Origin: Geodermatophilaceae bacterium
GTDB taxonomy: Bacteria > Actinomycetota > Actinomycetes > Mycobacteriales > Geodermatophilaceae
Assembly: GCA_013812145.1 (NCBI GenBank)
Contig: JACCTY010000063.1
Coordinates: forward strand, 1 to 43,929
DNA: 43,929 nucleotides
Direction of reading: 5' to 3'
The first letter of the stretch is position 1, and each line of letters opens with the position of its first letter. The notes under the pieces were generated by a model. It ran no database searches. It was not told the DNA's origin and saw only the letters and a list, made by a program, of their open reading frames with translations. Positions 1 through 27,173 of this stretch are shown in pieces. Made by a program: the position numbers and the translations under genes.

Positions 1-803
1 CGCATCGGATTGCCCCAGATGCCGTGATCGCCGACCAGGTCGACCTCGTTGCCGTCCAGGAAGTCCAGATCCGCCGCGGTGACATCCAGCCCGAGGAAGT
101 CCAAGACCCGCCCGAACTGTGTCGACGGGTCGCGGACGAAGTCCTCGTAGCGCAGCAGGGAGCGTCGGCCGGCGTCCCTGCTGATGGCCTCGAGCAGGAA
201 GTTGTAGAGCACCCACCGGGCCGCCGTGCGGCCGGGTGGGTGTCGACCCATGTGCCGGTTCTCGATGTCCTGCCGGAGAACCTGCTTGGAGCGGGAGTAG
301 GCCACGCCGCGGCTGTCCCGGACCAGATGGATGATCCGGGTGGACAGCCCGTCGGTGCGCAGCCGCAGGTGCGCCTCGGAGGCGAGTTTGGAGTTGTCCA
401 CGACGACTGCGGACCCGCTGACGTCTCGCACGGCGCGGAACAGCGCCCTGGTCAGCTCGGAGTATTCGGCGAGTTCATCCGGTCGGCTCGGCCCGCGCCC
501 CGCCGCGGCGCGGAACAGCTCGCTCCTGGCGCCGAGGCTGCGGCGCAGCCGCTCGGCACGCGCGGCGTCCACCTTGTCCCATCCGCCGAAGGCGGCCTCC
601 CCGACGCCGGTCCAGAACGGGCAGTCCAGGAACGGTTCGCCGCACGAGCACGGGAGATTGCCCTGGATACCGCGCCACCACAGGTAGCAGATCTCACCGA
701 CGTGGACGCAGCCGGGCATCCGGTGCAGCATCCGGCACAGCAGGGTGCTGCCGCTGCGGCCGACGCCGCCGACAAAGGCGACAGACACCGGCTGACTCTG
801 CAC
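1..803 (-). CDS. PAPS-dependent sulfotransferase, C-terminus cut by window edge
   Basis: The reading frame runs from a GTG at 803 down to base 1 without a stop, giving 267 residues. The C-terminus lies outside the window. The N-terminus has a 5'-phosphosulfate-binding loop GGVGRSGST (residues 12-20). VVDNSK and HLVRDSRGVAYS form the 3'-phosphate-binding region. A cysteine motif CSCGEPFLDCPFW (52-64) is shared with the sulfotransferase at 6586. The frame ends in a GNPMR motif that matches the GNPSRF motif of that paralogue, so about 40 residues are probably missing. The family transfers sulfate from PAPS to a hydroxyl or amine, here probably of a sugar, given the island. It lies 9 bp downstream of the alpha/beta hydrolase on the same strand, so the two are probably co-transcribed. 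The acceptor cannot be read. Confidence 0.88.
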   Translation of the reverse strand, partial: MQSQPVSVAFVGGVGRSGSTLLCRMLHRMPGCVHVGEICYLWWRGIQGNLPCSCGEPFLDCPFWTGVGEAAFGGWDKVDAARAERLRRSLGARSELFRAAAGRGPSRPDELAEYSELTRALFRAVRDVSGSAVVVDNSKLASEAHLRLRTDGLSTRIIHLVRDSRGVAYSRSKQVLRQDIENRHMGRHPPGRTAARWVLYNFLLEAISRDAGRRSLLRYEDFVRDPSTQFGRVLDFLGLDVTAADLDFLDGNEVDLVGDHGIWGNPM

Positions 804-812
804 GGCAGCAGG

Positions 813-1697
813 TTAACGTTCCGGCAGGTGCCGGCGGAGGAAGTCCACCTGGACGCTGATCGCGCGCTCGAACCAGTCACCGCTGTAGACGTCGAAGTGA
901 CCCGTCGGCAGCCGGTGCAGCTCCAGCCGCGGTGCCCGGCTGGCCAGCTTGGCGGCCTGATCCGGTGGGGTGATCCGGTCCCGGTCACACACCATGACCA
1001 GCCACGGGCAGCCGATCCGCGCTGCTGTGTCGAACGGGCGGTACCGCGGCAGCCGCAGGGTCACTCGCGGCGTGTACGCGTTGACCCACGTGTGCGTGGC
1101 GGGTAGCAGCGCCGCCATCGTGGCCGGCGCTCCCGGCCAGACGAGGGCACCGAAGGTGCCCGGCTCGGCGACGATCGGAATGGTGGCCGGTGGGCGACCG
1201 GTCCAGCCGCACCACTCGTCTCGAGCGGCCGCGCTCAGCAGCCGGGCCAGGCCGCCGAGTCGCCGCCGCCCGCCTCGACCGCCGAGTCCGGCGTACGGGA
1301 CCTGGCTGATCACCGCCGCGATCTTGGTGTCCTCGGCGGCCAGGGCGGCGACGTGCCCACCACTGAACGACGTTCCCCACAGCGCGACCCGCCGGGCGTC
1401 CAGACCGACAAGGCCCCTAACGGTGGCGATGGCCGCCCGCCAGTCGTCGAGTTGGCGGTTGATGTCGAGCAGCTGTCGCGGCGTGCCGCTGCTGGCTCCG
1501 AAGTGCCGGTAGTCGAACACCAGGGCGGCGAAGCCGGCGGCGGCGAAGCGTTCGGCGTACGCATCGAGTCGCGCCTCGCGGACGAGCCCGAAGCCGTGCG
1601 CCAGCACGATCACCGGTGGCGGGTCCGATCCGTCGGGCCGGTAGAGCCACGCGGCGCAGCGGTCATCCCCGGAACGGAAGGTGAGATCGGTCCGCAA
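813..1697 (-). CDS. alpha/beta hydrolase
   Basis: A 294-residue alpha/beta-hydrolase-fold protein. An oxyanion-type LAHGFG motif sits near residue 33. The nucleophile elbow is WGTSFSGGH with the likely catalytic Ser at 110. A probable acid lies in CDRDRITPP (Asp238 or Asp240), and the catalytic His is in PTGHFD (about 267). No signal peptide is visible, so it is probably cytoplasmic. The frame opens at a TTG at 1697 with no clear ribosome site, so the true start is uncertain. It precedes the partial sulfotransferase by 9 bp and is divergent from the DUF1800 gene. Substrate unknown; an esterase or deacylase of a sugar or lipid is possible but unsupported. Confidence 0.82.
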   Translation of the reverse strand: MRTDLTFRSGDDRCAAWLYRPDGSDPPPVIVLAHGFGLVREARLDAYAERFAAAGFAALVFDYRHFGASSGTPRQLLDINRQLDDWRAAIATVRGLVGLDARRVALWGTSFSGGHVAALAAEDTKIAAVISQVPYAGLGGRGGRRRLGGLARLLSAAARDEWCGWTGRPPATIPIVAEPGTFGALVWPGAPATMAALLPATHTWVNAYTPRVTLRLPRYRPFDTAARIGCPWLVMVCDRDRITPPDQAAKLASRAPRLELHRLPTGHFDVYSGDWFERAISVQVDFLRRHLPER

Positions 1698-1817: not shown

Positions 1818-3398
1818 GTGCACGAGAACGAGGCGCCTGCGCAGCCGCCGAGCGGGGGCCAGCTGCCCTCGGCCCGGACCGGCCGGGCGCTTGCAGCCAC
1901 CGGCGCGCTGGCCGTCGGCAGTGGTGCGGTCGCGCTGTACGCCGCGGGACTCGACCCGATCGGCGGCAACCCGCTCGGCACCGAGCGCGCGACGGTACTC
2001 GATCCCGATGCCACCCTGCACCTGATCCGGCGGGCGAGTTTCGGCATGTCGACCGCGCTGCTCACCGATGTCACTGAGAAGGGGCCGCGGCGGTGGCTGG
2101 ACGAGCAGCTGCACCCCGATCGCATCGACGACTCCGATGTCGACGCCCTGCTGGCGGCGTACCCTGCGCTGGCCTCCTCTGCGGCTCAGCTGCAGCAGAA
2201 GTACGCCGGCGCCCGCCGCACCCCGGGCGACGAACTGGTCGCGGCGACGCTGGCCCGCCAGCTGTGGAGCCGGCGGCAGCTGCTCGAGGTGATGACCGAC
2301 TTCTGGAGCAACCACTTCAACGTCACGACCCCGGGCGGGCCGGCGTACGCGACGAAGCCGGTGGAGGACGCGGCAGTCATCCGCCGGCATGCCCTCGGCA
2401 CGTTCGAGGACCTGTTGCTGGCCGACGCCACGAGCCCGGCGATGCTGCTGCACCTGGACAACGCGAGCTCGCGGGGGGACGACCCGAACGAGAACTACGG
2501 CCGCGAGCTGCTGGAACTGCACACGGTCGGGATCGAGGCCGGCTACACCGAAGCCGATGTCCGGGACAGCGCCTACGCGCTGACCGGATGGGGGGTCGCC
2601 CCGGACAGCACGTTCCTCTTCACCCCGGAGGCGCACTACACCGGCCCGCTGCGGGTCATGTCCTGGTCGGCGGCCAACGCCGAGGCCGCCGACGGCTTCA
2701 AGGTCGGAGCCGACTACCTGCGCCACCTTGCCTACCACCCGGCCACCGCCCGGCACCTGTCTACGAAGCTCGCCCGCCGCTTCGTCTCCGACGAACCCTC
2801 CACCGAACTCGTCGACACGCTGGCCGAGTCGTACCTGGCCGCCAGCAGCGGCATCATCGCCTGGCTGCGGACGCTGTTCGACTCCCGGGAGTTCGCCACA
2901 TCCGTCGGCCAGAAGGTGCGCCGCCCGCTCGAGGACCTCGTCGCGACGGTGCGGGCGCTCGGAATCGGCCCGCCGGTGGACGATCCGGTGCCGTCACTGG
3001 CGGATCTGGTACGGCGCTCGCGCGACCTCGGCCAGGCGCCGCTGGGAGCCGCGGCGCCGACGGGGTACGCCGATGTCGCGGCGCCATGGCTGTCGAGTTC
3101 GATAGCGCTCGGCCGCTGGAACGACCACCGCGCACTGACCGCCGAACGGGTGCCCGGGCTGGCCTACCCCGAGCTGGCCGGCCTGGCCGCCGACTCCGAG
3201 CCGCAGACGGTTGGTGAGCTCATCGACGCGCTGACCACCCGGCTGACCGGGCAGGTCTTCCGGTCGGACCACCGGCAGGTGCTCGTCGAGTTCCTCGACA
3301 CCGATGAGGACCGGCTGTACGTCGCAGCACAGGTCGACGGCGACCTGCCGGACCTGATCGCCCTGATCCTCGACTCTCCGTACCACCTGCTCCGATGA
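1818..3398 (+). CDS. DUF1800 family protein
   Basis: About 526 residues from a GTG at 1818, chosen because a GGGGG ribosome site lies just upstream; an ATG at 1761 is in frame but has none. After a short linker there is one hydrophobic stretch (about residues 18-38), a possible export signal or anchor. Then comes the DUF1800 signature LIRRASFGM, followed by family-typical blocks such as FWSNHFNV, ENYGRELLELHTVG and YTEADVRDSAYALTGW. DUF1800 proteins are almost always encoded next to DUF1501 proteins. That is true here: the stop overlaps the next start in ATGA. The biochemical role of the family is not established. Location beside LCP and sulfation genes suggests an envelope function. Confidence 0.85.
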   Translation: MHENEAPAQPPSGGQLPSARTGRALAATGALAVGSGAVALYAAGLDPIGGNPLGTERATVLDPDATLHLIRRASFGMSTALLTDVTEKGPRRWLDEQLHPDRIDDSDVDALLAAYPALASSAAQLQQKYAGARRTPGDELVAATLARQLWSRRQLLEVMTDFWSNHFNVTTPGGPAYATKPVEDAAVIRRHALGTFEDLLLADATSPAMLLHLDNASSRGDDPNENYGRELLELHTVGIEAGYTEADVRDSAYALTGWGVAPDSTFLFTPEAHYTGPLRVMSWSAANAEAADGFKVGADYLRHLAYHPATARHLSTKLARRFVSDEPSTELVDTLAESYLAASSGIIAWLRTLFDSREFATSVGQKVRRPLEDLVATVRALGIGPPVDDPVPSLADLVRRSRDLGQAPLGAAAPTGYADVAAPWLSSSIALGRWNDHRALTAERVPGLAYPELAGLAADSEPQTVGELIDALTTRLTGQVFRSDHRQVLVEFLDTDEDRLYVAAQVDGDLPDLIALILDSPYHLLR

Positions 3399-4687
3399 AT
3401 TTGGCGGAGCGGGCTCTCGTAACGGCCGCGGAGCGGGTGGCCGCGGACGCCGAACGCCGGACCGAGCTGTGGAGCCGCGGCTTCACCCGACGTCGCTTCC
3501 TGGCCGGTGCCGGCATGGTGGGCGCTGCTGCGCTCGGTTCTCAACTGGTGACTACCCGGTACTCCTACGCCGCACCAGGCACCGGCACCGGCCGGGCGCT
3601 GGTCGTCGTCTTCCTCCGGGGAGGCTTCGACGGCCTCGCCGCCGTGGTGCCCGCGGGGGACCCCGACTACCTCACCGCCCGGCCGTCCATCGGCGTACCG
3701 GCCGAGGTTCTGCTGCCCCTGGACCGCCGCTTCGGCTTGCACCCGGCGCTCGGCGGCCTGCATGGATTCTGGACGAGCGGTCAGCTCGGCATCGTCCATG
3801 CCGTCGGCGGCGGCCCGGGCGTCACCCGCAGCCATTTCCAGGCCATGGACCACGTCGAGCGCGGCGTCGACACCCCCTCGACCCGGACCGGCTGGCTGGA
3901 ACGCGCGCTGGAGGCAGCCGGTCCCGGCACGACGTTCCGGTCGGTCAGCGAGGGGACATCGCTGCCGTCCTCGCTGGCCGGCTTGGGCACCGCGGTCGCG
4001 CTGCGTGGCGTCGACCTGGTCACGCTCAACCGCGGCTCGGAGCGGATGACGACGGCGCTGCGCGGGCTGTTCAGTGGACTGGACCACGTTGCCGCCGATC
4101 AGGTCGATCTCGCGCTCACCGTTCTCAGCGAGGCTCAGGCGCTGCGGGCCACGCCGTACGTGCCGGTCAAGGGGGTGAGCTACCCCGCGGGGAACTTCGG
4201 TTCGGCGATGTCCGATGTGGCTCGGCTGGTCAAGGCCGACGTGGGGTTGCGGGTGGCCACCGTCGACGTCGGCGGCTGGGACCTGCACTCCAACGCCGGG
4301 CCGATCGAAGACGGTGACATGACCTACCACCTGACCGGGCTCGGCAACACGTTGGCTGCCTTTGGCACCGACCTCGGCGAGCGCTTGGCCGACGTCACGG
4401 TGGTCACGATGTCGGAGTTCGGCCGCCGGGTCGCCGAGAACGGCAGCGGCGGCACCGATCACGGCGGGGGCAACGCGATGCTCCTGCTCGGCGGTCGGGT
4501 GGCGGGAGGACTGGTGCACGGCGGATGGCCGGGGCTCGCGACCGAGGCGCTCGTCGACGGGGACGTGCCCGGGGTCAACGACTACCGCAACGTCCTCGCC
4601 GAGCTTGCCCGGGCGCAGTTGGGCATCGGTTCGGTGGCCTCGGTTTTCCCGGGTCACAGCTATGTGCCGCTGGGCGTCGTACGCTGA
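3395..4687 (+). CDS. DUF1501 family protein, Tat-exported
   Basis: 430 residues, translationally coupled to the DUF1800 gene by a 4-bp overlap. The N-terminus carries a twin-arginine signal, TRRRFLAG, followed by a hydrophobic run and an A-rich cleavage region (about residues 31-60), so it is probably exported folded by the Tat pathway. DUF1501 hallmarks include LRGGFDGL, an internal VDVGGWDLHSN, a MSEFGRR block and TDHGGGN near the C-terminus; the His and Asp residues look like metal ligands. As I recall, the family is placed in the alkaline phosphatase/sulfatase superfamily, so a metal-dependent ester hydrolase activity outside the cytoplasm is possible but unproven. Confidence 0.87.
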   Translation: MNLAERALVTAAERVAADAERRTELWSRGFTRRRFLAGAGMVGAAALGSQLVTTRYSYAAPGTGTGRALVVVFLRGGFDGLAAVVPAGDPDYLTARPSIGVPAEVLLPLDRRFGLHPALGGLHGFWTSGQLGIVHAVGGGPGVTRSHFQAMDHVERGVDTPSTRTGWLERALEAAGPGTTFRSVSEGTSLPSSLAGLGTAVALRGVDLVTLNRGSERMTTALRGLFSGLDHVAADQVDLALTVLSEAQALRATPYVPVKGVSYPAGNFGSAMSDVARLVKADVGLRVATVDVGGWDLHSNAGPIEDGDMTYHLTGLGNTLAAFGTDLGERLADVTVVTMSEFGRRVAENGSGGTDHGGGNAMLLLGGRVAGGLVHGGWPGLATEALVDGDVPGVNDYRNVLAELARAQLGIGSVASVFPGHSYVPLGVVR

Positions 4688-4725
4688 CTCGACCGCGCTT
4701 CATGATCAAAAGGGGACCGCACGGC

Positions 4726-5796
4726 ATGACCGACGAGGACACCACCGCAGAGCCGGCGGTCACCGATGAGCCGCGCCGCAGGCCCAGGTTGCGGCGGGTG
4801 CTCACCGTTCTGCTGATCTGCGGCCTGGTGGTCGCCCTGACGGTCTTCGGGCTCGCCTGGTTCCTGACCGAGCGTTACGTCGGCAACATCGCCCGCATCC
4901 CGGGCGTCTTCGAAGGGCTCGATCCGAGCACCCGCCCCGAACCGGCGACCCCGGCACCCGGTGAGGACGAGGCTCCCCTCACCTTCCTGCTCGTCGGCAG
5001 CGACTCCCGCTCGGACGAGCCGACCACCGGCGACGCCGCAACGGCCGAGGCCGGTTCGCAGCGCTCCGACGTACTCATGCTGCTGCAGATCTCGGCGGAC
5101 CGGCGGGACGCCTTTGCGATCTCCTTTCCGCGCGACTCCTACGTGCCGGTTCCGGGATACGGGACGACGAAGATCAACGCCGCGTACTCCTTTGGCGGCC
5201 CCACGCTGCTCGTGCAGACCATGGAGCAGCTCACCAACATTCGGATCGACCACTTCCTGTCCGTGGACTTCGTCGGCTTCAAAGCGATCACCGACGCCCT
5301 CGGCGGGGTGGACGTTCGGGTGGCCGAGGAGACCCGGGCGTTCGGTGTCACGTTCACCAAGGGCATCAACCACCTGAACGGCGACGAGGCCCTGGCCTAC
5401 GTGCGGCAGCGCTACGAGCTTCCGAACGGCGACCTCGACCGGGTCCAGCGGCAGCAGAGCTACCTGCGCGCGGTGATGGCCACCGTGCGCCGCGACAACC
5501 TGCTCACCGATCCGGCCAAGCTGGACGACTTCCTGCTCGCGGTGACGAGCTCGGTCAGCGTGGACGCCGAGTTGAGCGATCTCGAACTGCTCTCGCTGGC
5601 GATCAGCCTGCGCAACCTGGACCCGCGCAACGTCTCCTTCCTCACCGCCCCGGTCGCGGGACTGGGCATGGAAGGTGACCAGAGCGTGGTCTACCTCGAC
5701 CAGGCCCGGTCCCAGGAGATGTGGGAGTACATCCGGCAGGGAACCCTCGCCGATCATCTCGGCGAGTTCAACACGCTGCCCGCCGTACCTCGCTGA
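4726..5796 (+). CDS. LytR-CpsA-Psr (LCP) family glycopolymer transferase
   Basis: 356 residues from ATG 4726, preceded by an AGGGG site 10 bp upstream; ATG 4702 is an alternative. A basic cytoplasmic tail is followed by one membrane helix (about 25-46) and an extracellular LCP domain from about residue 86. Signature elements are FLLVGSDSR, RSDVLML (113-119), SFPRDSYV (134-141) and KINAAYSFGG, with the arginines and aspartates that bind the lipid pyrophosphate. LCP enzymes move glycopolymers from polyprenyl carriers onto cell-wall peptidoglycan or arabinogalactan. In this island it is the natural candidate for anchoring the polysaccharide to the wall. It is convergent with the tyrosine phosphatase gene, 13 bp away. 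Confidence 0.92.
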   Translation: MTDEDTTAEPAVTDEPRRRPRLRRVLTVLLICGLVVALTVFGLAWFLTERYVGNIARIPGVFEGLDPSTRPEPATPAPGEDEAPLTFLLVGSDSRSDEPTTGDAATAEAGSQRSDVLMLLQISADRRDAFAISFPRDSYVPVPGYGTTKINAAYSFGGPTLLVQTMEQLTNIRIDHFLSVDFVGFKAITDALGGVDVRVAEETRAFGVTFTKGINHLNGDEALAYVRQRYELPNGDLDRVQRQQSYLRAVMATVRRDNLLTDPAKLDDFLLAVTSSVSVDAELSDLELLSLAISLRNLDPRNVSFLTAPVAGLGMEGDQSVVYLDQARSQEMWEYIRQGTLADHLGEFNTLPAVPR

Positions 5797-5809: not shown

Positions 5810-6445
5810 CTAGCTGCTGGCGTTCGCCGGTGAGACGCCCATCCGGCGGTAGTCGTCCTCCTCGTCCCACTCCTCTGTCCCGCACAGGACCGCGAGCAGA
5901 TCCAGCAGCGGCGTGGCGATGTCGTTGCCGACCCGCAGGAACGTCTGCTGGTCGCGGCCGATGGGGTCGATGATGTCGTCGACGCGGGGATCCAGCGATA
6001 CCCGGCTGGCGCGTTGGCGGGCCAACGCCGCCACGAGCGCCTGCCCCCGGCGGGTCAGATCCGAGGCGTCCGGCAGCGGCGCGTAGGGGATGCCCTGCAT
6101 GAGTGCGTGCGCCTCGCGCAACGTGAACGTGCGGGACAACGCCCGGGGGGAGCCGCCGAGGACGGTACGGCGTTGCTTCCGGGACATTGTCAGGACGAGA
6201 TCCGCTTCGGCGACCTGCCACTCCTCGAGCAGCCCGGCCCGAAAGCCGCTGCCCTGCCCGCCGAGACCGAGCAGCACCATCTCCGCCGTCGGGTGCATGG
6301 AACTGCCGACGACGGCCTGCGTTCCGGCGCTGGCGGTGGTGAGCTGGCTCGGGTCGGGCAGGCACGCCTCGGCATAGGCGCGGGTGAGGCGCTCGGCCGT
6401 GGGAGAGCGGCAGATGTTGCCGGTGCACACGTAGAGGATGTGCAC
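5810..6445 (-). CDS. low-molecular-weight protein tyrosine phosphatase (Wzb-like)
   Basis: 211 residues with a GTG start at 6445 and a GAGGGG ribosome site about 10 bp upstream. The N-terminus has the P-loop CTGNICRS (7-14), with nucleophile Cys7 and Arg13. The likely general acid is Asp160 in DDIIDPIG. Bacterial LMW phosphatases of this type are usually about 150-160 residues; this one has extra length before the acid loop and an acidic C-terminal tail. In capsule systems such enzymes dephosphorylate the tyrosine tail of the BY-kinase, here the product of 21292-22986. It shares a short divergent region with a sulfotransferase gene. Confidence 0.9.
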   Translation of the reverse strand: MHILYVCTGNICRSPTAERLTRAYAEACLPDPSQLTTASAGTQAVVGSSMHPTAEMVLLGLGGQGSGFRAGLLEEWQVAEADLVLTMSRKQRRTVLGGSPRALSRTFTLREAHALMQGIPYAPLPDASDLTRRGQALVAALARQRASRVSLDPRVDDIIDPIGRDQQTFLRVGNDIATPLLDLLAVLCGTEEWDEEDDYRRMGVSPANASS

Positions 6446-6585: not shown

Positions 6586-7515
6586 ATGCGTCTGGTGTTC
6601 GTCGCCGGATGGATGCGCAGCGGTACGACCTTGCTCACCGAACTGGTCGGCTCCTCACCCGGCGCCCTCGCGGTCGGCGAATTGGCCACCATGTGGACCG
6701 CACTGGAGCGTGAGGATCACTGCTCCTGCGGGCAGCCGCTTCGCAGCTGCCCGGTCTGGGGAGTCGTGGCCACCGAGGTCGCCGACCGGCACGACATCGG
6801 ACCCGGATGCAGCACGAGCTACCTGGACTTCGACGCCGTGGTCCGCGGCGTGCTGCGGCTCAGGCGGCTGCCGGGCCTGCGGCGGTTGCGGCGTACCGAT
6901 CCCGACAGCTTTCCGGCCGATGTCAGGCGGTTGTCCGAGGTGATGCGGACCGTGCTGCGGACCGTCACCGAGGTCAGTGGGTGCAGCGTCATCGTGGACT
7001 CCTCCAAACGGCCGACCGCCCTGGTGGTGTTCGCACTGATCCCAGGCGTCGAGCTCACCCCGGTCCACCTGGTTCGAGATCCCCGAGCGGTGGCCTTCAG
7101 CGAGTCCCGCCGGTGGCAGTGGGAGGGGGTCAAGGCACACTTGTCGCCGCCCGGCCGAGGGGTCCTGCTCAGTGCGCTGCACTGGGTATTGACGACGGTC
7201 GCGTGCCACCTCGTCGGCAGCCGGTTCCCGGGCTACCGGCTGCTGCGCTTCGAGCGGCTGACCGCACTGCCGGAGGAGACGATGACGGCGGTGTCCAACG
7301 GTCTCGGCCTCATCCCGCCGCCCTTTGTGGCAGCTGACGCCGTACAGCTGGCGCCGAGTCACGTCGTCAACGGCAACCCGAGCCGGTTCGGCAGCCGGCT
7401 ACGCAAGATCAAAGCCGATGAACGGTGGCGCACCCAGTTGCCGGTGACCGAACGACTGGCCGTCGGCGTGCTGACCGCGCCGGTGCGGCTGGCTCTGAAA
7501 CTGATGGCGCGATGA
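6586..7515 (+). CDS. PAPS-dependent sulfotransferase
   Basis: 309 residues from ATG 6586, which has a strong GGAGGAG site 7 bp upstream. The 5'-phosphosulfate loop is GWMRSGTT (8-15). VIVDSSK (135-141) and HLVRDPRAVAFS (161-172) form the 3'-phosphate-binding half. A cysteine motif CSCGQPLRSCPVW (46-58) and the C-terminal GNPSRF match the partial sulfotransferase at the left edge, so the two are paralogues. Its stop overlaps the start of cysC in ATGA, so enzyme and PAPS supply are translationally coupled. The acceptor is unknown; a sugar in the island's polysaccharide is the likeliest. Confidence 0.9.
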   Translation: MRLVFVAGWMRSGTTLLTELVGSSPGALAVGELATMWTALEREDHCSCGQPLRSCPVWGVVATEVADRHDIGPGCSTSYLDFDAVVRGVLRLRRLPGLRRLRRTDPDSFPADVRRLSEVMRTVLRTVTEVSGCSVIVDSSKRPTALVVFALIPGVELTPVHLVRDPRAVAFSESRRWQWEGVKAHLSPPGRGVLLSALHWVLTTVACHLVGSRFPGYRLLRFERLTALPEETMTAVSNGLGLIPPPFVAADAVQLAPSHVVNGNPSRFGSRLRKIKADERWRTQLPVTERLAVGVLTAPVRLALKLMAR

Positions 7516-10481: not shown

Positions 10482-10482
10482 C

Positions 10483-19076: not shown

Positions 19077-20438
19077 GTGAGATTCCTCGGCGTGGCCTGC
19101 CTTGCCCTGCTCCCGCTGCAGTGGTTCGTGGTCGTCGGGTCCCCGGTCGGCGGGAACATCCGGGTCCATCAGCTCGGCGTGTTCGTCCTGACAATCATTG
19201 TGTTCCTCACATATGGCATGAAGCAGTCCGACGATGTCATCCACCGTTTCCGTGTTTTCCTGATCGCGAACGCGTACATGTACATCATCTGGGCGGCGGT
19301 CACGATGTACGGCGGTATGGTGCCGATCGATCCCATCCAAGAAATGGTCTACATGGTCATTTTCCTGGCGGTCGGTGTGTATTTCTATGTCGCGGCGCTA
19401 TCCCCCGACGTCAGATTTGTCGAGACGCTGCGGTGGACCGCCCCTGCCGCCCTCACCGTGCTAGTGGGCGGGCTCACCCTCGGGGCGGTCCAGAACAGAG
19501 TGGACATAGCCGCGGTGATCGCGCAAGCCATCGCCACGGGAGACCCGAATGTCATCGAGTTCGGGTTGTTCCGGCGGGTCTTCGGCGGTTTCGGATTCGA
19601 GTCCGATGAGGTCCGGGCCAACTTCCGACACGAGATCTTCGGCGGCTTGCTGCTTGCCATGTACGTCACCGGGTGGGCGCACTCCCGTGTGCCGTTTCAG
19701 CCCGGTCTGAAATCGTGGATCTACCGCGCCACGATGGTCGGCGGCGCTGGCATGCTCCTTCTTTCGCTGAGCCGCTCGATCATCATTGCGGCAGCGATGT
19801 GGCCGCTCATCCTCATCGCCCGGGCGCTGGTCACCGGCCGGGTCAGCCAGCGCAACCAGCTGACCGGAATCGTGGTTCTCATCGGGGCGGTCATGGTGGG
19901 CCTGGCCGGGGTCTGGGAGCTGCTCTACGAACGATTCTTCGAAGACACGAACTCCTACGACACGCGATCGAGCAACGTGGCGTTGTCATTCCAGACGATC
20001 CAGGAGAACTTCTGGCTGGGCAAGCCAGACCTGACCGGTGAGACCAGCGCACACAACTTCGTTCTGGACGCCTGGTCAGGCGCCGGCGTCTTCGTCGGCG
20101 TCCCGGCGCTGATCGTGTTCCTCTCGGTGGTCGCGCTGTGGGCGTCCATGCTGCTGCGGATCAGCACCATGCCCGACGAACTGCTGCCGATCACCGCCGC
20201 TCTTGCGCTGCCGACGATCCGGATGCTCACCCAGGGCGGCGGTCTGCTGGCCATCGTGGAGTGGGTGACACTGGGATTCGTCGCCGGCGTTCTGGTGGCG
20301 GCCTACCGCACCGCCGAGAAGGGACGAGCGGCGGACAGCGCTCACGTCGCGGCGGCGCGGGCCGCGCGGAACAATGCCGCCAGGAGCAGTCCGGCGCTCG
20401 CGGCCAGGCGGGCCGGTACCGGTCAGATTGTCGAGTAG
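19077..20438 (+). CDS. O-antigen ligase/polymerase-like membrane protein (Wzy candidate)
   Basis: About 453 residues from GTG 19077, chosen for the G-run 8 bp upstream; GTG 19047 is an in-frame alternative. It is highly hydrophobic with roughly ten or more membrane helices and a large loop in the C-terminal half. This loop contains RSSNVALSFQTIQENFWLGKPDLTGETSAHN split by polar residues, where Wzy/WaaL proteins carry the NxFL...SAHN(x)fl motif. The arginine-containing LSRS segment after the sixth or so helix also fits. Wzy polymerises flipped repeat units at the outer face. Its last 16 bp overlap the tail of the convergent sulfotransferase gene. Confidence 0.85.
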   Translation: MRFLGVACLALLPLQWFVVVGSPVGGNIRVHQLGVFVLTIIVFLTYGMKQSDDVIHRFRVFLIANAYMYIIWAAVTMYGGMVPIDPIQEMVYMVIFLAVGVYFYVAALSPDVRFVETLRWTAPAALTVLVGGLTLGAVQNRVDIAAVIAQAIATGDPNVIEFGLFRRVFGGFGFESDEVRANFRHEIFGGLLLAMYVTGWAHSRVPFQPGLKSWIYRATMVGGAGMLLLSLSRSIIIAAAMWPLILIARALVTGRVSQRNQLTGIVVLIGAVMVGLAGVWELLYERFFEDTNSYDTRSSNVALSFQTIQENFWLGKPDLTGETSAHNFVLDAWSGAGVFVGVPALIVFLSVVALWASMLLRISTMPDELLPITAALALPTIRMLTQGGGLLAIVEWVTLGFVAGVLVAAYRTAEKGRAADSAHVAAARAARNNAARSSPALAARRAGTGQIVE

Positions 20439-21292
20439 CCCAGCCGGCGCATTTGCTGCTCGCACATGTCATTGACGAGTTCCACGTGACGCGGAGCAAG
20501 CTCCTGTCGCCAGCTGTCGATCTGGCCGCGGCGGAAGGTGGCGCTCTTGGGGGAATACACCGATCCGGCTACCCGGCCGACTTCCTCATCTCCGGCAGGC
20601 AGCCCGAGGAAGCGCAGGACGTCCGAGACGACAGTGCGTTGCTGCTGATCCGACCCGCCGCCCTGCGAACCGACCAGATCCTCGTAGCGCACCACGCACA
20701 CTCCCGGCTCGGAGAGCCAAGGTATGTATCGATCCAGTCGCTGCGTGATGCCGGGGATCCCGGGGCCGTCATCGGTCGACGGAATGCCGACGACGACGGC
20801 GTGGATGCGGTCGTCGAGGTCGGGATACTCCCGGAGAACGCGAGCGTGCAGGGGGTGCCGCTCGTTCGAATGCAGGTAATTCGCCGCGGACAGCACGATC
20901 GCTCGCGGGTCGCGGATGCTGAGGATCGTTCGGCACCCGGCCTCGGCCAGGACGGCGGCGATATCGGGCTGATGGCGGATGTGGCCGGTCATGTACTGCG
21001 ACGGACGCAGCCGGCGCACCAACGACCGCAGCTCACGCAGGCTCTGCTCGTTCGAGCCCCCGGGCCGGTCCGCCCCGGTGTAGGCGAAATGCGTGCCGGC
21101 GAAGCGCATCCCCGCCACGGAGTCCAGCAACGACATCAGGACGTGGGTGCCGGCCTTGGGGATGCTGTTGGCGAGGACTGTGGGGCCGGTCCCGGCCGGG
21201 CGCAGCCGGGTGTACAGCCGGTATCCGGCAATGCCGATCGGGCGCAACCGCGGGTTGCTGCGGACGCGGCGGGCAAGCTTGCTGGTCAGCAT
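20423..21292 (-). CDS. sulfotransferase (Sulfotransfer_1-like)
   Basis: 289 residues; its ATG shares one base with the BY-kinase stop (TGATG), so translation is probably coupled. The 5'-phosphosulfate loop is NSIPKAGTH (42-50); the usual PKSGTT has His in place of the last Thr. ILSIRDPRAIVLS (123-135) is the 3'-phosphate site. The C-terminal SATFRRGQIDSW resembles the RKGxxGDW motif of cytosolic-type sulfotransferases, so this belongs to a different subfamily from those at 1-803 and 6586. It probably sulfates a sugar hydroxyl of the repeat unit or polymer. Acceptor not readable. Confidence 0.88.
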   Translation of the reverse strand: MLTSKLARRVRSNPRLRPIGIAGYRLYTRLRPAGTGPTVLANSIPKAGTHVLMSLLDSVAGMRFAGTHFAYTGADRPGGSNEQSLRELRSLVRRLRPSQYMTGHIRHQPDIAAVLAEAGCRTILSIRDPRAIVLSAANYLHSNERHPLHARVLREYPDLDDRIHAVVVGIPSTDDGPGIPGITQRLDRYIPWLSEPGVCVVRYEDLVGSQGGGSDQQQRTVVSDVLRFLGLPAGDEEVGRVAGSVYSPKSATFRRGQIDSWRQELAPRHVELVNDMCEQQMRRLGYSTI

Positions 21293-22986
21293 CAGGTGTC
21301 GGCGCTGGCGCTGCGACCGCTTCTGCTCGCGCCGGCGGTCGCATCCTCGCTACCAGGCCGGGACGGTGAACTGTCGGCCGCGACCGACTCGTCCTTGGTC
21401 AACTTCGGGGAGGTCGACGTGGACTCCACCGTGGCGGGTAGGCCCCCCTTGGCGTCCGCAGCGGTGTCGGCAGTGGCCTTCCAGCCGCCACTGCCCGTGT
21501 CGGCGGTCGTCCGCCCACGGCTGCGGCTCCCGCGCTTGCGGCCCTTGGCCACCCGCGGGTCCAGGTCACGCGGGGCGTTGGACTCGGCCTCGTACCCGTA
21601 CCCGTAGCCGTACCCGTACCCGTAGGCCTGGGCGCCCTTGAGGACCACCATGTTGAGCACGGTTCCGATCAGCCGGGCGTCGATGGCCTGCAGGCTTTCC
21701 GCCGCCGTACGGAGGATTTCGCGCTTGGTCGATCCATATCGGGTGACGATGACGGCGCCGTCGGCGAGCACCGACAGCACGGCTGCGTCAGTGACCGGCA
21801 GCAGCGGCGGGGCGTCGATGATGACGTAGTCGTTCTTCTCGCGCAGCTCGGCCAGCACGTGACCCATCTGCGCCGAGCCCAGCAGCTCGCTCGGGTTCGG
21901 CGGGTGGGGTCCGGCGGCTAGCACGGTGAGTTTGCCGTCCCGCCACGGCTGCAGCACCTCGGACAGCTCGGCGTTTCCGACCAGCACGTTCGTCAGGCCG
22001 ACGCCGCTGACCAGGCGCATGTAGCGGGTCACCCGGGGACGCCGCAGGTCCGCCTCGACCAGCACCACCCGGTTTCCGGAGTGCGCGAGCACGAGCGCCA
22101 GGTTGATCGCCGTGGTCGACTTGCCCTCGCCGCTGACCGAACTGGTCACCACCATGACCCGCGGCGGATCGTCGACACTCACGAACTGCAGACTGGTCCG
22201 GATCTGGCGGTAGGACTCACCGGTGCGGGAGTTCGCTGAATAGTCGGTGGTGAGCGGGTGCTCGGGGATCGACGGGTCGAAGAGCACACCCCCGAGGACG
22301 GCGGCGTTGGTGACCTCCTCGACCTGCTTGCCGGTCTTGACGGTGTTGTCGAGCAGGTGGCGCAGCAGGGCGATCAGGATGCCCAGCAAGAGTCCGAGGG
22401 CCGCTCCGAGCGCCAGGTTGTTCGTGGTGGACGGCGCCACCGGGGCGCCGGGCAGGGTGGCGGTCTCCACCCGGCTGGCCTTGACCGGCGCGGTGGGGGT
22501 CGTCGTGATCTGCTCGCCGGTTTCGGTGGTGAGTGTGCTCTCCGCGGGCGTCTCGATCTCTTTCACCAGGATGACGAATTCCCCGGCCACCGCGTTCGCC
22601 AGCAGCTGGGCGCGAACCGGCGACTCGTCGGTGACGGTGGCGTCCAGGATGGAGATGTCCGCGATGAACTCGGTGGAGATGGAGCCGGCGAGTTCGGCCG
22701 GTGTCATGTCGACGCCGGTCGTGTTGATGACCCGTTGGGCAAGGTTGCGGCCGGTCAGTAGTTTGGCGTACGTCGGCACCCGGTTCGCGGCTATGGTGTC
22801 GGCCTGCACGTTAGCGGTCTCGGTCGGGCTGGACCCGGAGGTCGAGATGAACACGCTGGACGTGGCGGCGTACACCGGAGTGGTGGTGAGGGTGAGCGCG
22901 CCTCCGACTGCCACTCCGAGGAGCAGGCAGACCCAGACCGCCCTCCAATGCACCCGAAGCGCGTGTAGGTACTGGCGAAGATCCAC
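21292..22986 (-). CDS. Wzz/BY-kinase chain-length regulator and tyrosine autokinase
   Basis: 564 residues. A Wzz domain with membrane helices near 17-35 and 190-208 flanks an outer loop. It is followed by a cytoplasmic BY-kinase domain with Walker A VSGEGKST (284-291), Walker A' VLVEADLRRP (308-317) and Walker B YVIIDAPP (387-394). The kinase helps control export and length of polysaccharides by cycles of tyrosine phosphorylation. The tyrosine cluster is unusually regular: six Tyr alternating with Gly at 455-465. About 100 Ser/Thr/Ala-rich residues follow, which most BY-kinases lack. The LMW phosphatase at 5810 is the likely partner. It overlaps the sulfotransferase gene by 1 bp. Confidence 0.95.
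   Translation of the reverse strand: MDLRQYLHALRVHWRAVWVCLLLGVAVGGALTLTTTPVYAATSSVFISTSGSSPTETANVQADTIAANRVPTYAKLLTGRNLAQRVINTTGVDMTPAELAGSISTEFIADISILDATVTDESPVRAQLLANAVAGEFVILVKEIETPAESTLTTETGEQITTTPTAPVKASRVETATLPGAPVAPSTTNNLALGAALGLLLGILIALLRHLLDNTVKTGKQVEEVTNAAVLGGVLFDPSIPEHPLTTDYSANSRTGESYRQIRTSLQFVSVDDPPRVMVVTSSVSGEGKSTTAINLALVLAHSGNRVVLVEADLRRPRVTRYMRLVSGVGLTNVLVGNAELSEVLQPWRDGKLTVLAAGPHPPNPSELLGSAQMGHVLAELREKNDYVIIDAPPLLPVTDAAVLSVLADGAVIVTRYGSTKREILRTAAESLQAIDARLIGTVLNMVVLKGAQAYGYGYGYGYGYEAESNAPRDLDPRVAKGRKRGSRSRGRTTADTGSGGWKATADTAADAKGGLPATVESTSTSPKLTKDESVAADSSPSRPGSEDATAGASRSGRSASADT
21592..21624 (-). repeat. hexanucleotide (Tyr-Gly) coding repeat in the BY-kinase tail
   Basis: Six TAC codons alternate with GGG or GGC codons, with a period of 6 bp, encoding residues 455-465. 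Gain or loss of a unit would change the number of tyrosines without shifting the frame. Confidence 0.9.
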
Positions 22987-23126: not shown

Positions 23127-24515
23127 TCACGGCGATTCGTCGAATGCCGCGAGCAACTCCTTGCGTTCCTGCCGCGCCTGCGCACGCTTTCGACGGCGTT
23201 TCAGCAGCATCCGGATGGTTCCCACCGGCTCCAGCGCCGGCAGGGCCATCCAGAAGAATGCCCGGGTGCGGCGGGCGACGAGCGCACCGAGGAAGAACAC
23301 CCACAGGTAGGCGATGAAGCTGCTGATCGCGGCACCGACCGCACCGTATTTCGGCAGCAGCGCAAAGTTCACGCCGATGCTCAGCACGGCCCCGATAACG
23401 TTTCGCACGATTGCTTCCCGGTACCAGCGCTCCCAGTTCGTCATGAACTGCAGAAGCCCGCCGATACAGACGAATGGGGTGGACAACGCCAGCAGGACGA
23501 TGACCAGCCTGGTGTCCTCGAAACCGGGCCCGAGCAGGACCGGGGCCAGCGGAGCCATGATGAACACCAAGGCGAGGGTGAGCAGGTAGCCCAGCAGCAC
23601 CAGCACCCGGGTCACCGCGATGAGTTCGGTCTGGTACCGCTCGGGGTCCCGGTTCTTGAGCTTGAGCAACCGCGGCGCGACGGAGATGAACAGCGCCAGC
23701 AGCGCGAACCGCGGCGCCTCGGCCATGCTGGAGGCGACCGCGAACAGACCGGCCTCGGACAGGCCGGACAGCCATCCGACCATCGCCTGATCCAGGCGCA
23801 GGTAGATCAGGGCGCTGCTCGAGGTGATCAGCAGCGGCGCGAACTCCTTGAGGGTGGCACCCACGCGGCTGGACTCCAGCACCCAGTGGTCGCGATCGGA
23901 CATCCGCCGATAGGCGATCCACAGTCCGATGCCGACCAGTGCCGCCTCGATCACGTACGTCCAGGCCACCGCGACGATGCCGTAGCCGAGCAGTGGCAGC
24001 GCCACCCTGGCGGCGCCGGTGAGCAGCAGGGCGGCAATCCGGATCAGCACCGCGGGCCGGCTCTGCAGCTCCATCTTGAACCAGGCATCGACGACGTTGA
24101 GGGGCCGCAGCAGGGCGGACCCGACGACGATGAGGATGACAACGCCGGTGGTGCTCCCGAACCCCATGGTCGCGCCGATCACCGCGGCCATCAGGAGGTA
24201 GAACAGGCTGGTCACGATGCCGACGGAGGCCGCCGATGCGGCGTACAGACGGCCGGCCTCCGCCGGCTTGGCGATGACGTCGCGGAGCAGGCACTGCACC
24301 GCGGGGTTGATCACCGATCCGACCAGGAGCAGAAACGCCAGGCCGATCGCCAAACTGCCGAGGTCTTCCTTGCCCAGGGCCCTGGCGACCACGATGCTGA
24401 CGACGAACGCCACGCCGAGGTGCACCACCCGTTCGAAAACGAGCCAGACCGCGTTCTTGCCCGACTTTCGGGTGCCGGCGAGCGCTGGGCTGGGCTCGGG
24501 AAGTGCTTCGGTCAC
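23127..24515 (-). CDS. polysaccharide flippase (Wzx-like, MOP superfamily)
   Basis: 462 residues with about twelve to fourteen predicted membrane helices, opening with GKNAVWLVFERVVHLG, where Wzx proteins have their first helix and its conserved basic residues. The blocks ARALGKEDLG, YLRLDQAMVGWL and the later LPKYGAVGAAISS are characteristic of the polysaccharide biosynthesis branch of the MOP (MATE-like) exporters. The protein would flip the undecaprenyl-linked repeat unit across the membrane for polymerisation. The frame begins at GTG 24515. A 140-bp gap downstream separates it from the BY-kinase gene; upstream the acyltransferase ends 11 bp away. Confidence 0.92.
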   Translation of the reverse strand: MTEALPEPSPALAGTRKSGKNAVWLVFERVVHLGVAFVVSIVVARALGKEDLGSLAIGLAFLLLVGSVINPAVQCLLRDVIAKPAEAGRLYAASAASVGIVTSLFYLLMAAVIGATMGFGSTTGVVILIVVGSALLRPLNVVDAWFKMELQSRPAVLIRIAALLLTGAARVALPLLGYGIVAVAWTYVIEAALVGIGLWIAYRRMSDRDHWVLESSRVGATLKEFAPLLITSSSALIYLRLDQAMVGWLSGLSEAGLFAVASSMAEAPRFALLALFISVAPRLLKLKNRDPERYQTELIAVTRVLVLLGYLLTLALVFIMAPLAPVLLGPGFEDTRLVIVLLALSTPFVCIGGLLQFMTNWERWYREAIVRNVIGAVLSIGVNFALLPKYGAVGAAISSFIAYLWVFFLGALVARRTRAFFWMALPALEPVGTIRMLLKRRRKRAQARQERKELLAAFDESP

Positions 24516-24526
24516 GGGAGCGGTGA

Positions 24527-25252
24527 CTAGCGGTTCTTCAGTACACGCGGGTTCGGTAGCGAGTGTGCCGGCGTCCGCGTCCGCGTGCCGTCCTCGGAGT
24601 AGTCAAAGGCCACCCAGTCGCTGATGTCCGGGCGAACGACCTTCGCCGGCACTCCGGCGTACAACGCGTGCGGCGCTGTTGCGCCCGGCATCAGAACGGC
24701 ACCCATCGCGAGGACGGACCGTTCCGGCAGGGTGGCTCCGACGGCCATGATGCACGACGAGGCGACGAACGAACTCTCCTCCATCCTCGTCACAGCACAC
24801 GCCATGACGTGACGTTTCGGGTCGTAGGAGTGCGACATCATGGTGATGCTGCGCCCGGCCAGGCCCGACCAGTCACTGATCACGATGCCGCCGGAGGCGT
24901 CTAGGTTGTGCCGGCGGGTGATCAGGCAGCTCTTGCCGATCGAGAAGACGCCGACATGTTCAGGATCGGCCTCCGGGGAACTGCGGAACTTCGGGTTCGC
25001 CCAGATGAAGTTCCACGGCCCGATCAGTGTGTAGGAGCCAACCCGCGCACCGCGGAGGTTCTTGAACACGTTCCCGATGGAGATCCGGGCGTCTGAGTCC
25101 ACCTGCATCCGGCCGACGTTGAAAATGACCACGGGATCGATCACCGCCGACTTGTGCACGTCGTGTCCCAGGGCATTGAGAAGCTTGTTCTTTGTCGTGG
25201 AGGCAGGCAGCACTCCGACAATGAGCACCAGGACCGCTCTGAGCCGGCGCAT
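24527..25252 (-). CDS. hexapeptide-repeat (LbetaH) acyltransferase
   Basis: 241 residues from ATG 25252, chosen for its GGAGG site 7 bp upstream. After a short hydrophobic N-terminus come imperfect hexapeptide repeats, as in VGVFSIGKSCLITRRHNLDAS, and a block ending AMGAVLMPGATAPHALYAGVPAKVV, the left-handed beta-helix signature of CoA-dependent O-acetyltransferases. The His in RRHNLD or in SHSYDP is the likely catalytic base. Located between flippase and sulfotransferase genes, it probably decorates the polysaccharide with acetyl groups. A short loss of glycine-hexads in the middle makes family assignment approximate. Confidence 0.82.
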   Translation of the reverse strand: MRRLRAVLVLIVGVLPASTTKNKLLNALGHDVHKSAVIDPVVIFNVGRMQVDSDARISIGNVFKNLRGARVGSYTLIGPWNFIWANPKFRSSPEADPEHVGVFSIGKSCLITRRHNLDASGGIVISDWSGLAGRSITMMSHSYDPKRHVMACAVTRMEESSFVASSCIMAVGATLPERSVLAMGAVLMPGATAPHALYAGVPAKVVRPDISDWVAFDYSEDGTRTRTPAHSLPNPRVLKNR

Positions 25253-25359
25253 CTGTGTACCTCCGCACTGCTGCTGGAATGGCCGACGGCACCGATGGTG
25301 CCGGCGGATCGTGCGCCAGCATAGTCGGCGGTTCCCCGAACGGAGGTCGGTCCCCGGCG

Positions 25360-26220
25360 TCAGCGTCGCCAGCTGGGCGTCCAGCCCAGCCACCTGGCCA
25401 GCCTTTCGTCGTAGGGGGCGAACTCGTCGGCCAACCGGGTGTTTAGGTGTGCGGGCAGAACTGGGCGGGGGCGGGCGTTGAGGTTTGCCAGGTCGGACGG
25501 CTGCCAGGTCTGCAGCCCGAGAAAAGAGGTCAGGCCGTCCAACGCCGGTCCGGCGTCGAGGAACATCGAGTCGCTGTCGATCACGTGGAGCCGGTCGCGT
25601 CCAACGAGCGCCGCCAGTCGTTCCAGCTGTTCTACGTACCGCCCACGGGTGACATAGGCCTGGCAGGCGTGCGGACGGCTGCGGTAGAGCGGCTCGGCGA
25701 CGAGTCGCGCCACCTCACCGGACAGCCGCTGCTCCTCCAGGTCCAGCGCGCGCTCGAACGGCTCGCTCTCCCAGCCCATCGAGACCGAGTGGGCGTGCTC
25801 GGAATGGGCGCGCTGGACCGGGTCCCGGATCAGCACGATCAGTCGGACGTCAGGCAGATCGGCGGCGATCCGCATCGCCGCGAGCGGGTGCCACATGTAG
25901 GACGGCGTGGCCTCCCCGGTGACCGCTGTCAGACCGGTCCGCCGTGCGCTGATCGCCGCGGCGGCGCGGGTCGGAAAGTGCCCGCGGTACCAGCTGGCTC
26001 CGCGGTGGTAGGCGTTGTCGAAGTAGTGCACCTCCTTGTGCAGCACCGCGCGCAGCACCTGGGGATGGCCGGCCAGCGTGTCGTACAGCGAGGTCGTGCC
26101 GGCCCGCTTGGCTCCGACGACGAGGAAGCTCGGCGTCATTCGCAACTCGGCGGTCAGCCGCCCGGCGGTGCGGGTTCCCGCCTGCACTGCACGCCGTGCG
26201 GAACGCGGGATTCGGGACAT
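25360..26220 (-). CDS. sulfotransferase (carbohydrate type)
   Basis: 286 residues from ATG 26220, sharing one base with the stop of the next sulfotransferase gene upstream (TGATG). The 5'-phosphosulfate loop is VGAKRAGTTS (35-44). KEVHYFD (62-68) follows, and VTGEATPSYMW (100-110). The 3'-phosphate site is LIVLIRDPVQRAHS (127-140). This layout, with a KExHYFD block and GEATPSY, is that of heparan-sulfate-like carbohydrate sulfotransferases, supporting a sugar acceptor. It lies 107 bp before the acyltransferase gene. Acceptor position unknown. Confidence 0.9.
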   Translation of the reverse strand: MSRIPRSARRAVQAGTRTAGRLTAELRMTPSFLVVGAKRAGTTSLYDTLAGHPQVLRAVLHKEVHYFDNAYHRGASWYRGHFPTRAAAAISARRTGLTAVTGEATPSYMWHPLAAMRIAADLPDVRLIVLIRDPVQRAHSEHAHSVSMGWESEPFERALDLEEQRLSGEVARLVAEPLYRSRPHACQAYVTRGRYVEQLERLAALVGRDRLHVIDSDSMFLDAGPALDGLTSFLGLQTWQPSDLANLNARPRPVLPAHLNTRLADEFAPYDERLARWLGWTPSWRR

Positions 26221-27173
26221 CAGCCGCTGCTCCGTTGCCACGCCCCGAGATCCCGGTTCAACAGCGACGCCAGATCCTCGACCTCCGAGGCGTAGTAGTC
26301 CCGCAACCGCTGTTCGACCGCGGTGTCGATACACGGTCGGCGGTCGCGGCCGAGCCGGCTGAGCACAAGCTTGTCCACTGCGGTCAACCCCGCAACCATG
26401 CCCCATGCCAGCGGCCCCTTGCGCCTGGGCGAAACCTTGCCGTACGTGGTGTCGTAGTCGTAGTAGCGGCGGCTGCGGGCAGCCCGCAGCCGGACCCTGG
26501 GCGGCCAGTAGATGCCCGGATTGGCCGTGGATCGCACACCGTCCCTCGGGACGGTGTCGTCTGCGTCGAGGAAGTGGAGGGCAGTGGCCAGGCTGCCCGC
26601 CGGATCACGAGCCATGTCGTCGTGCAGCAGGACCAGGAATTGCTCGGGGGCGAACCAGTTGTGCCAATGCCGCAGGTGCGCGGCGTACCGCCCGTACTCC
26701 AGAATCTCCTGTGACTTGGGGTGGTCCTTCTGCATTCTTCCGTCGAGAATCGCGGCGAGCGCGGCCGAGGGATCCATCACCGGCACGAAACCGAAAACGG
26801 CCAAGTGGTAGTACGCCGATACCGCGCGGGCAACCGGCTCCCGCAGGACCGCCAGCAGCTTGATCCGCGGGACGTGATCGGCCACTCGGCCGGGCACCTC
26901 CGGCTTGGGCAGGTAGTCGGGGCGCTTCAAGCCGGTGAGCGATCCGGCCCGTGGCGCGAGCAGATCGCTGAGGTGCCGCAGGCCGCCACGGCCGTAGTCG
27001 GGATCCTCGAAGTGGCGGGACTCGTGCTCCAGAACGGTGATGTCGGGATGCTCGGCGAGCCGGCGCTGCAAGAACGTCGACGCCGACTTCTGTGCCCCGA
27101 TGATCGCGAAATCCAGCGGGAGACCCGTGCACGCGCGTCCCCAGGCCCGGGTTCTCGGGTCGTCGCTGAGCAT
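26220..27173 (-). CDS. sulfotransferase (carbohydrate type)
   Basis: 317 residues from ATG 27173 with a short AAGG site. The loop IGAQKSASTFL (25-35) binds the 5'-phosphosulfate; EHESRHFEDPDY (49-60) and LKRPDYLP (82-89) occupy the places of KExHYFD and GExTPxY. LLAVLREPVARAVSAYYH (106-123) is the 3'-phosphate site, followed by LEYGRYAAHLRHW. It is the first gene of the leftward run ending with the acyltransferase, flippase, BY-kinase and a fifth sulfotransferase. A dyad GTGAA-TCAG-TTCAC lies 33-46 bp upstream of its start (27206-27219). Confidence 0.9.
   Translation of the reverse strand: MLSDDPRTRAWGRACTGLPLDFAIIGAQKSASTFLQRRLAEHPDITVLEHESRHFEDPDYGRGGLRHLSDLLAPRAGSLTGLKRPDYLPKPEVPGRVADHVPRIKLLAVLREPVARAVSAYYHLAVFGFVPVMDPSAALAAILDGRMQKDHPKSQEILEYGRYAAHLRHWHNWFAPEQFLVLLHDDMARDPAGSLATALHFLDADDTVPRDGVRSTANPGIYWPPRVRLRAARSRRYYDYDTTYGKVSPRRKGPLAWGMVAGLTAVDKLVLSRLGRDRRPCIDTAVEQRLRDYYASEVEDLASLLNRDLGAWQRSSG

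Follow-up and report, generated by a model that had tools for sequence, protein, structure and literature searches.

A polysaccharide locus of a Geodermatophilaceae bacterium with its own sulfate-activation genes and five sulfotransferases

Described clusters for sulfated bacterial polysaccharides

Bacterial gene clusters for sulfated polysaccharides have been described in several groups, and they provide the yardstick for the locus considered here, an island of polysaccharide and sulfation genes at positions 1-27,173 of contig JACCTY010000063.1 from a Geodermatophilaceae bacterium. The window, i.e. the whole stretch of DNA that was analysed, is this entire contig of 43,929 bases (C78 of genome G000, a MAG-type assembly which comprises 3.08 Mb in 186 contigs and is 95% complete). 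Judged by its gene families, the island is likely to build a sulfated heteropolysaccharide that is probably linked to the cell wall.

One relative is the xss cluster of Synechocystis sp. PCC 6803, whose product is synechan (PMC8205485). Like xss, the island is of the Wzx/Wzy type and combines a priming glycosyltransferase, a polysaccharide co-polymerase and in-cluster sulfotransferases (PMC8205485). The cyanobacterial cluster, as described there, has two sulfotransferases, eight glycosyltransferases and its own two-component and STAND regulators (PMC8205485), whereas the island encodes five sulfotransferases (STF1 to STF5), only two glycosyltransferases besides the priming polyprenyl-phosphate sugar-1-phosphate transferase (PGT), a LytR-CpsA-Psr (LCP) ligase and, within the locus itself, the genes for making 3′-phosphoadenosine 5′-phosphosulfate (PAPS). 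This last trait is shared with Vibrio sp. KMM 8419, where cysNDC and sulfotransferase genes likewise lie within a polysaccharide cluster (PMC11641403). The structure of that sulfated capsule was solved by NMR, so the Vibrio product is chemically proven, while here the product is predicted from genes; the Vibrio system further differs in being Gram-negative, in its export by an ABC transporter and in its rhamnose/glucose repeat (PMC11641403). A sulfated capsule has also been reported for Cobetia (PMC11766843).

An actinobacterial relative is wps-1 of Actinoplanes missouriensis, a predicted cluster for a sulfated polymer that was published in 2026 and genetically tested (PMC13390465). It is likewise of the Wzx/Wzy type, encodes two sulfotransferases, of which one belongs to the heparan-sulfate type, and adjoins a sulfate adenylyltransferase/adenosine 5′-phosphosulfate (APS) kinase gene, AMIS_7390; a GH26 enzyme and a methyltransferase are its own features, and its sulfation is predicted, as it is here (PMC13390465). 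Unlike wps-1 as reported, the island has separate CysD, CysN, CysC and CysQ genes, the sugar-nucleotide enzymes UGD, UXS and GME, an LCP ligase and a DUF1800/DUF1501 pair. Deletion of AMIS_7390 or wpsH impairs sporangia; the severe defect of the AMIS_7390 mutant was unexpected to the authors, who present this gene via its role in the synthesis of sulfur amino acids (PMC13390465).

Our literature search returned nothing on a sulfated exopolysaccharide in Geodermatophilaceae, and papers on geodermatophils and sulfotransferases were, by their titles, all on Frankia or its hosts. An earlier note on the window had called such an actinobacterial pathway little described, which is fair, but the predicted wps-1 cluster (PMC13390465), synechan (PMC8205485) and the Vibrio capsule (PMC11641403) are precedents. 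The kind of locus is thus already known; what is new here is that the search of this genome turned up no reductive route for PAPS, that the genes from UXS to CysQ form a tight run and 21 island genes are under purifying selection, that two sulfotransferases resemble heparan-sulfate enzymes, and that the locus recurs.

Genes, order and recurrence of the island

Genes were called by codon-position GC and domains identified by Pfam and NCBIfam scans, and these matches bear out the island of polysaccharide and sulfation genes that the earlier note had recognised. Its proposed PAPS cycle stands for CysD, CysN and the APS kinase, all above their NCBIfam cut-offs. CysC, a free-standing APS kinase, lies on the plus strand (7506..8063, with the start at either 7506 or 7536; Pfam E 7.5e-56, TIGR00455). 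On the minus strand follow CysN (9231..10481; TIGR02034) and CysD (10483..11397; TIGR02039), the large and small subunits of sulfate adenylyltransferase. The remaining member is less firm: a CysQ-like 3′-phosphoadenosine phosphatase of the IMPase family (8491..9234, minus; Pfam E 1e-29) matches TIGR01331 with E 2e-28, which is below the cut-off (99.6 vs 228.8 bits).

All five proposed sulfotransferases could be recovered, four above the Pfam cut-off and STF2 by homology. STF1 (3..803, minus; Sulfotransfer_3, E 4.5e-15) is truncated by the contig end and has an 80% identical counterpart in G001, a genome of the same genus. Its paralogue STF2 (6586..7515, plus, scanned from 6550; dN/dS 0.26) scores 26.6 bits, just under the cut-off of 27, and shares 32% identity with STF1 over 276 aa (E 5e-30). 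STF3 (20423..21292, minus) belongs to PF00685 (E 6e-8), and two neighbours are of the heparan-sulfate type, STF4 (25360..26217, minus, scanned as 25360-26406; human 3-OST-3, E 5e-16) and STF5 (26220..27173, minus; 3-OST E 2.5e-16, NDST E 6e-8). A P-loop-like 5′-phosphosulfate motif was seen in all five proteins and a simple 3′-phosphate pattern in all except STF3.

Sugar nucleotides would be supplied by UDP-glucose 6-dehydrogenase (UGD; 11427..12743, minus; Pfam E 2e-58), UDP-xylose synthase (UXS, an epimerase-type UDP-glucuronate decarboxylase; 12805..13797, minus; human UXS1, E 3e-111) and a protein previously noted as a GDP-mannose epimerase homologue, which can now be specified as GDP-mannose 3,5-epimerase (GME; 16727..17710, minus). 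It matches the solved GME chains in the PDB with E 8e-89 and 3e-86, aligning from residue 6 or 8 to 325 of 327 and hence over nearly its full length; the product of this enzyme is GDP-L-galactose.

The assembly genes comprise the priming PGT (13984..15471, plus; PF02397 E 3e-64, TIGR03025 of the EPS polyprenyl glycosylphosphotransferase subfamily above cut-off), two GT4-like glycosyltransferases (15501..16730, minus, Pfam E 2e-10; 17898..19010, plus, E 1.5e-16), a Wzx flippase (23127..24515, minus; PF01943 E 7e-15) and a Wzz chain-length domain fused to a tyrosine autokinase of the P-loop kinase type with a Tyr-rich stretch (21292..22986, minus; Pfam Wzz E 7e-8, TIGR01007 above cut-off). A Wzb-like low-molecular-weight tyrosine phosphatase (LMWP; 5810..6445, minus; LMWPc E 2e-17) and the LCP ligase (4702..5796, plus; PF03816 E 4e-45, TIGR00350 above cut-off), a candidate for wall attachment of the polymer, lie near the sulfate-activation genes. 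The claimed completeness of a Wzx/Wzy pathway therefore holds for PGT, Wzx, Wzz/kinase and phosphatase and is weak for the polymerase. The putative Wzy (19047..20438, plus; dN/dS 0.17) has many membrane segments by crude hydropathy and no Pfam family of its own; one of four aligned sequences, from a relative, matches Wzy_C (PF04932, E 6.5e-4), and the profile is narrow, matching 7 of 146 genomes. Similarly, the proposed acyltransferase (24527..25252, minus) had no match in the Pfam scan and is only weakly WcaF-like: it is of the hexapeptide type, with an NCBIfam WcaF match below cut-off (E 4e-6) and a best PDB chain at E 2.5e-4.

These genes are arranged tightly. UXS, UGD, CysD, CysN and CysQ form one minus-strand run in which consecutive genes lie 61, 29, 1 and -4 bases apart; on the plus strand, STF2 adjoins CysC. 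Compared with G001, 21 island genes have dN/dS values of 0.064-0.285, i.e. they are under purifying selection, more than chance would give; this set contains none of the flank genes LIP, MBL, ACS and SerRS, and neither UXS, whose match was an epimerase paralogue, nor STF3, over which G001 has no contig.

A search for the gene set in related genomes shows that much of this arrangement is kept within the genus. G001 carries most of the island on three contigs, with 69-96% protein identity and STF3 falling into a gap between contigs. The run UXS-UGD-CysD-CysN-CysQ is found again in G003 (L137; 98% complete), and the block DUF1800-DUF1501-LCP-LMWP-CysC also in G001, G002 and G012, the last from another genus. 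Beyond that block, CysQ-CysN-CysD follow in G001 and G012, and STF2 keeps its island position in G001 only. The activation block is thus present in G001 and G012, reaches CysC in G002, where the contig ends, and is split over two contigs in G003, whose best CysC match is poor (E 1e-4) and whose contigs C5 and C189 break at the expected CysC position. The polymer part diverges in G002, G003 and G012: identity is 43-53% for Wzx and the Wzy-like protein and 48-52% for the acyltransferase of G002 and G003, and other sulfotransferases, in G003 other glycosyltransferases as well, have been substituted. In G008, from a further genus, one contig carries STF2-, STF4-, Wzz-, LCP-, UXS- and LMWP-like genes, and a second one UGD, PGT, a glycosyltransferase and the epimerase. 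Taken together, the pattern resembles that of a capsule-type locus in which the genes for activation and attachment stay constant and the polymer part varies.

The search was extended to 146 genomes, our own included, of which 74 hold STF4 homologues. In at least 14 of these 74 an APS kinase lies within 40 kb of the STF4 homologue; about 3.2 would be expected under random placement, if kinship and contig breaks are ignored. Twelve of the 14 loci were read, leaving out the window itself and G145. Three genomes of the same family (G051, G064 and G068) and one of another family (G104) have CysC, CysN, CysD, PGT, Wzz and both sulfotransferase types, with CysQ in the fetched stretches of G064, G068 and G104, not of G051. 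Full loci of the same type are therefore present in four or more other genomes, which belong to two families. The remaining loci are more partial: G106 has CysC, Wzz and STF1- and STF4-like genes, with no PGT, CysN or CysD match in the fetched stretch; G034 and G077 have a CysN-CysC fusion with CysD, CysQ, sulfotransferases, a more distant PGT and a distant Wzx; G097, G119 and G127 have a small CysC-CysD-CysN-sulfotransferase set, and G089 and G116 only CysC and STF4. The locus of G068, a one-contig genome, additionally encodes Wzx, a Wzy_C protein (E 1.3e-8), a WecG-type transferase and three sulfotransferases. A gene of the TauE/SafE sulfite-exporter type (L182:10139-11191) adjoins it.

Proposed product, alternatives and the fate of PAPS

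From the gene families and their arrangement we infer a series of catalytic steps, a sugar composition, wall attachment and joint action on one polymer. UGD and UXS would supply UDP-glucuronate and UDP-xylose, and GME GDP-L-galactose; the PGT would start a repeat unit on the polyprenyl carrier, which the two glycosyltransferases would extend. CysDN and CysC would convert sulfate to PAPS, from which the five sulfotransferases could place sulfate on the sugars in the cytoplasm, with CysQ clearing the by-product 3′-phosphoadenosine 5′-phosphate. Wzx would then flip the unit and the Wzy-like protein polymerise it, Wzz/kinase and phosphatase may set the chain length, and the LCP ligase would likely fix the chain to the wall.

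The last step distinguishes this pathway from one whose sulfated glycan, not linked to the wall, would belong to the matrix of a spore or sporangium or to some other extracellular matrix. LCP proteins are known as ligases of wall glycopolymers, and the inclusion of one in the conserved block argues against such a matrix glycan; it also suggests a wall-linked glycopolymer instead of the free exopolysaccharide envisaged by the earlier note. A matrix function was proposed for wps-1, in line with the sporangium defects of its mutants (PMC13390465), yet for the island we regard it as improbable, if somewhat less so than the two explanations that follow.

A second option, that the sulfotransferases act on a lipid or small glycolipid and leave the Wzx/Wzy polymer unsulfated, could draw on rhizobial Nod factor and mycobacterial lipo-oligosaccharides as named bacterial sulfotransferase products (PMC8205485) and on a weak match to NoeE (E 4e-4), the only NCBIfam match of STF2; it is nonetheless quite unlikely, given that heparan-sulfate sulfotransferases are the closest solved structures to STF4 and STF5, that the sulfotransferase genes are interspersed with those for Wzx, Wzz and glycosyltransferases, and that relatives have other sulfotransferases in the polymer part.

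Equally doubtful, in our view, is that CysDNC and CysQ belong to an ordinary pathway of assimilatory sulfate reduction whose cysH and sulfite reductase genes lie in the unassembled part, the sulfotransferases being incidental neighbours. The idea has some appeal, as the genome is 95% complete, G001 carries cysH-sir on another contig, G012 has a CysH fragment, and an APS kinase lies within 10 kb of a sulfite reductase domain (NIR_SIR) in at least 48 of the 83 genomes of the family for which an APS kinase was listed. The same count rejects the stricter idea that CysC always accompanies sulfite reductase in the family. On the other side, the activation genes and those for sugar nucleotides belong to the same strand run, and CysC adjoins a sulfotransferase. 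Moreover, the absence of PAPS and sulfite reductases from the window, already noted earlier, extends to the whole assembly: CysD is the only protein of the PAPS-reductase superfamily (PF01507) found there, no PAPS or APS reductase was found beyond it, and NIR_SIR had no match. For comparison, all nine relatives examined, which represent nine further genera of the family (g2-g5, g7-g9, g11, g12), have at least two PF01507 matches, and NIR_SIR occurs in at least 134 of the 146 genomes.

One homologous site is informative in this regard. In G001, cysH-sir-cbiX-cysG is kept beside polA, on a contig other than the island's. The matching site of our own genome (L178) spans 3.2 kb and encodes a GGDEF protein and a LysE-type transporter besides an uncharacterised open reading frame, and in G003 (L179) just 136 bases separate the aligned flanks; CysH, SIR, CbiX and CysG had no match in the polA-site stretches of either. 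The two flanks are joined on a single contig, so that no assembly gap at this position is the cause. Nor were NIR_SIR, among the matches listed, or a second PF01507 protein found in G003. As at least 134 genomes retain NIR_SIR, loss of cysH and sir in the window's genome and in G003 is a simpler account than their acquisition by G001. The four genes are likewise not on the polA contig of G012, and NIR_SIR is not among the matches listed for that genome; contig C280, however, has a CysH-like fragment at its edge (71% identity over 82 aa), so G012 probably keeps cysH and is not treated as a case of loss. Absences in G002, which has no PF01507 match in the whole genome, were left unused.

With neither a PAPS reductase nor a sulfite reductase found, PAPS seems to be without a reductive outlet in this genome and appears to serve sulfotransferases only, the five of the island plus one confident and one weak candidate elsewhere. 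Together with the shared strand run, the gene order partly kept within the genus and the recurrence in two families, this makes one sulfated polymer as the joint product of the island well supported, with the polymerase as its weak point.

Several observations weigh against this interpretation. The polymer is a prediction from genes. Wzy is the weakest assignment of the polymer set, and hhalign gave no signal between the putative Wzy and the Wzy_C-bearing protein of G068 (probability 0.5%). Three of the five sulfotransferases show no resemblance to any solved polysaccharide sulfotransferase. The run itself is not uniform among relatives: in G001 (L064:6559-6690) UXS ends after its first 27 residues and UGD starts about 50 bases on, inside the contig, through either deletion or misassembly, and in G012 a glycosyltransferase, not UGD, precedes CysD. 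Reductive genes may lie in the missing 5% of our own genome, where absence is no proof. The confident sulfotransferase outside the island (G000:C70:9927-10823, L047; PF00685 E 5.5e-35), which directly follows purine genes of the adenylosuccinate-lyase and SAICAR-synthetase types, could be another user of PAPS. Finally, G001 holds the island yet keeps cysH and sir, and G012 holds it together with, apparently, cysH; the island hence does not need the loss of the reductive branch, and a restriction of PAPS to sulfation does not come with the island as such.

Neighbouring features and implications

Upstream of the LCP gene lie a DUF1800 gene (1818..3398, plus, start refined by codon statistics; Pfam E 8e-114) and a DUF1501 gene (3395..4687, plus; E 5e-27) whose product has a Tat-type N-terminus. 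The DUF1501 model (pLDDT 86) adopts an alkaline-phosphatase-superfamily fold and is nearest to NPP phosphodiesterases (best VIA Z 18.6, rmsd 3.2 over 240 residues), with a best Foldseek E of 2.5e-5 and TM-scores of about 0.2-0.4. Formylglycine sulfatases carry the motif C-x-P-x-R; the DUF1501 protein has no cysteine and is therefore not such a sulfatase. For the DUF1800 model (pLDDT 88), Foldseek found no PDB match at E<=0.001, which is not proof of a new fold. The two genes are paired at 52 of 52 DUF1501 loci from several phyla, so that an island-specific DUF1501 enzyme is rejected as a general claim. Island cys or LCP genes lie in the fetched flanks of loci L084, L085 and L090, and L086 ends inside LCP. 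Alignments comprised six sequences (A1), 50 of the 52 loci plus the window (A3, with L088, which has a stop, and the partial L130 left out) and 32 of the 52 plus the window (A4). A second DUF1501 gene is present in our own genome (G000:C161:16163-17125, L163). The pair has earlier been noted next to bacterial chitin synthases (PMC5122149).

To the right of the island lie ordinary genes, which encode a lipase-family protein, an AMP-binding enzyme, a proteasome activator, SerRS and IMPDH, and the outer part of this flank is present in G001, G002 and G003. To the left, where the contig ends within STF1, G001 continues outward with genes for a DUF4185 protein, a hydrolase, a cupin protein, an FGGY kinase and a GntP permease, so that little of the island seems to be missing. 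Between STF1 and DUF1800 lies an alpha/beta hydrolase gene (813-1697) that is missing there in G001, where STF1 adjoins DUF1800. The stretch at 12738-12809, between UGD and UXS, is a dispersed intergenic repeat with matches of 81-90% on seven other contigs of G001, G002, G003 and G012, in places tandem at about 64 bases (G001:C279). The activation-block contig of G012 also carries integrase, resolvase and primase-polymerase genes (L063:135-5167).

A more far-reaching scenario is offered tentatively, and we hold it for less probable than the sulfated polymer as such: the lineage may have lost reductive sulfate assimilation and may keep ATP sulfurylase and APS kinase solely for sulfation of its envelope. 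The product could then be a glycosaminoglycan-like, wall-fixed chain, as hinted at by the enzymes for uronate/xylose and L-galactose and by the heparan-sulfate-type sulfotransferases, with DUF1501/DUF1800 as an exported processing pair.

The missing reductive branch amounts to a natural experiment in which PAPS destined for sulfation can be told apart from PAPS destined for amino acids. It further invites a rereading of the Actinoplanes AMIS_7390 phenotype, which a role in PAPS supply for WpsB and WpsH would explain. Given loci of the same type in genomes of the same order, the combination of APS kinase, sulfotransferases and PGT would offer a testable marker for such clusters. Sulfated polysaccharides are usually credited to animals, algae, cyanobacteria and some marine bacteria, and a near-complete locus in soil actinobacteria would widen this map.

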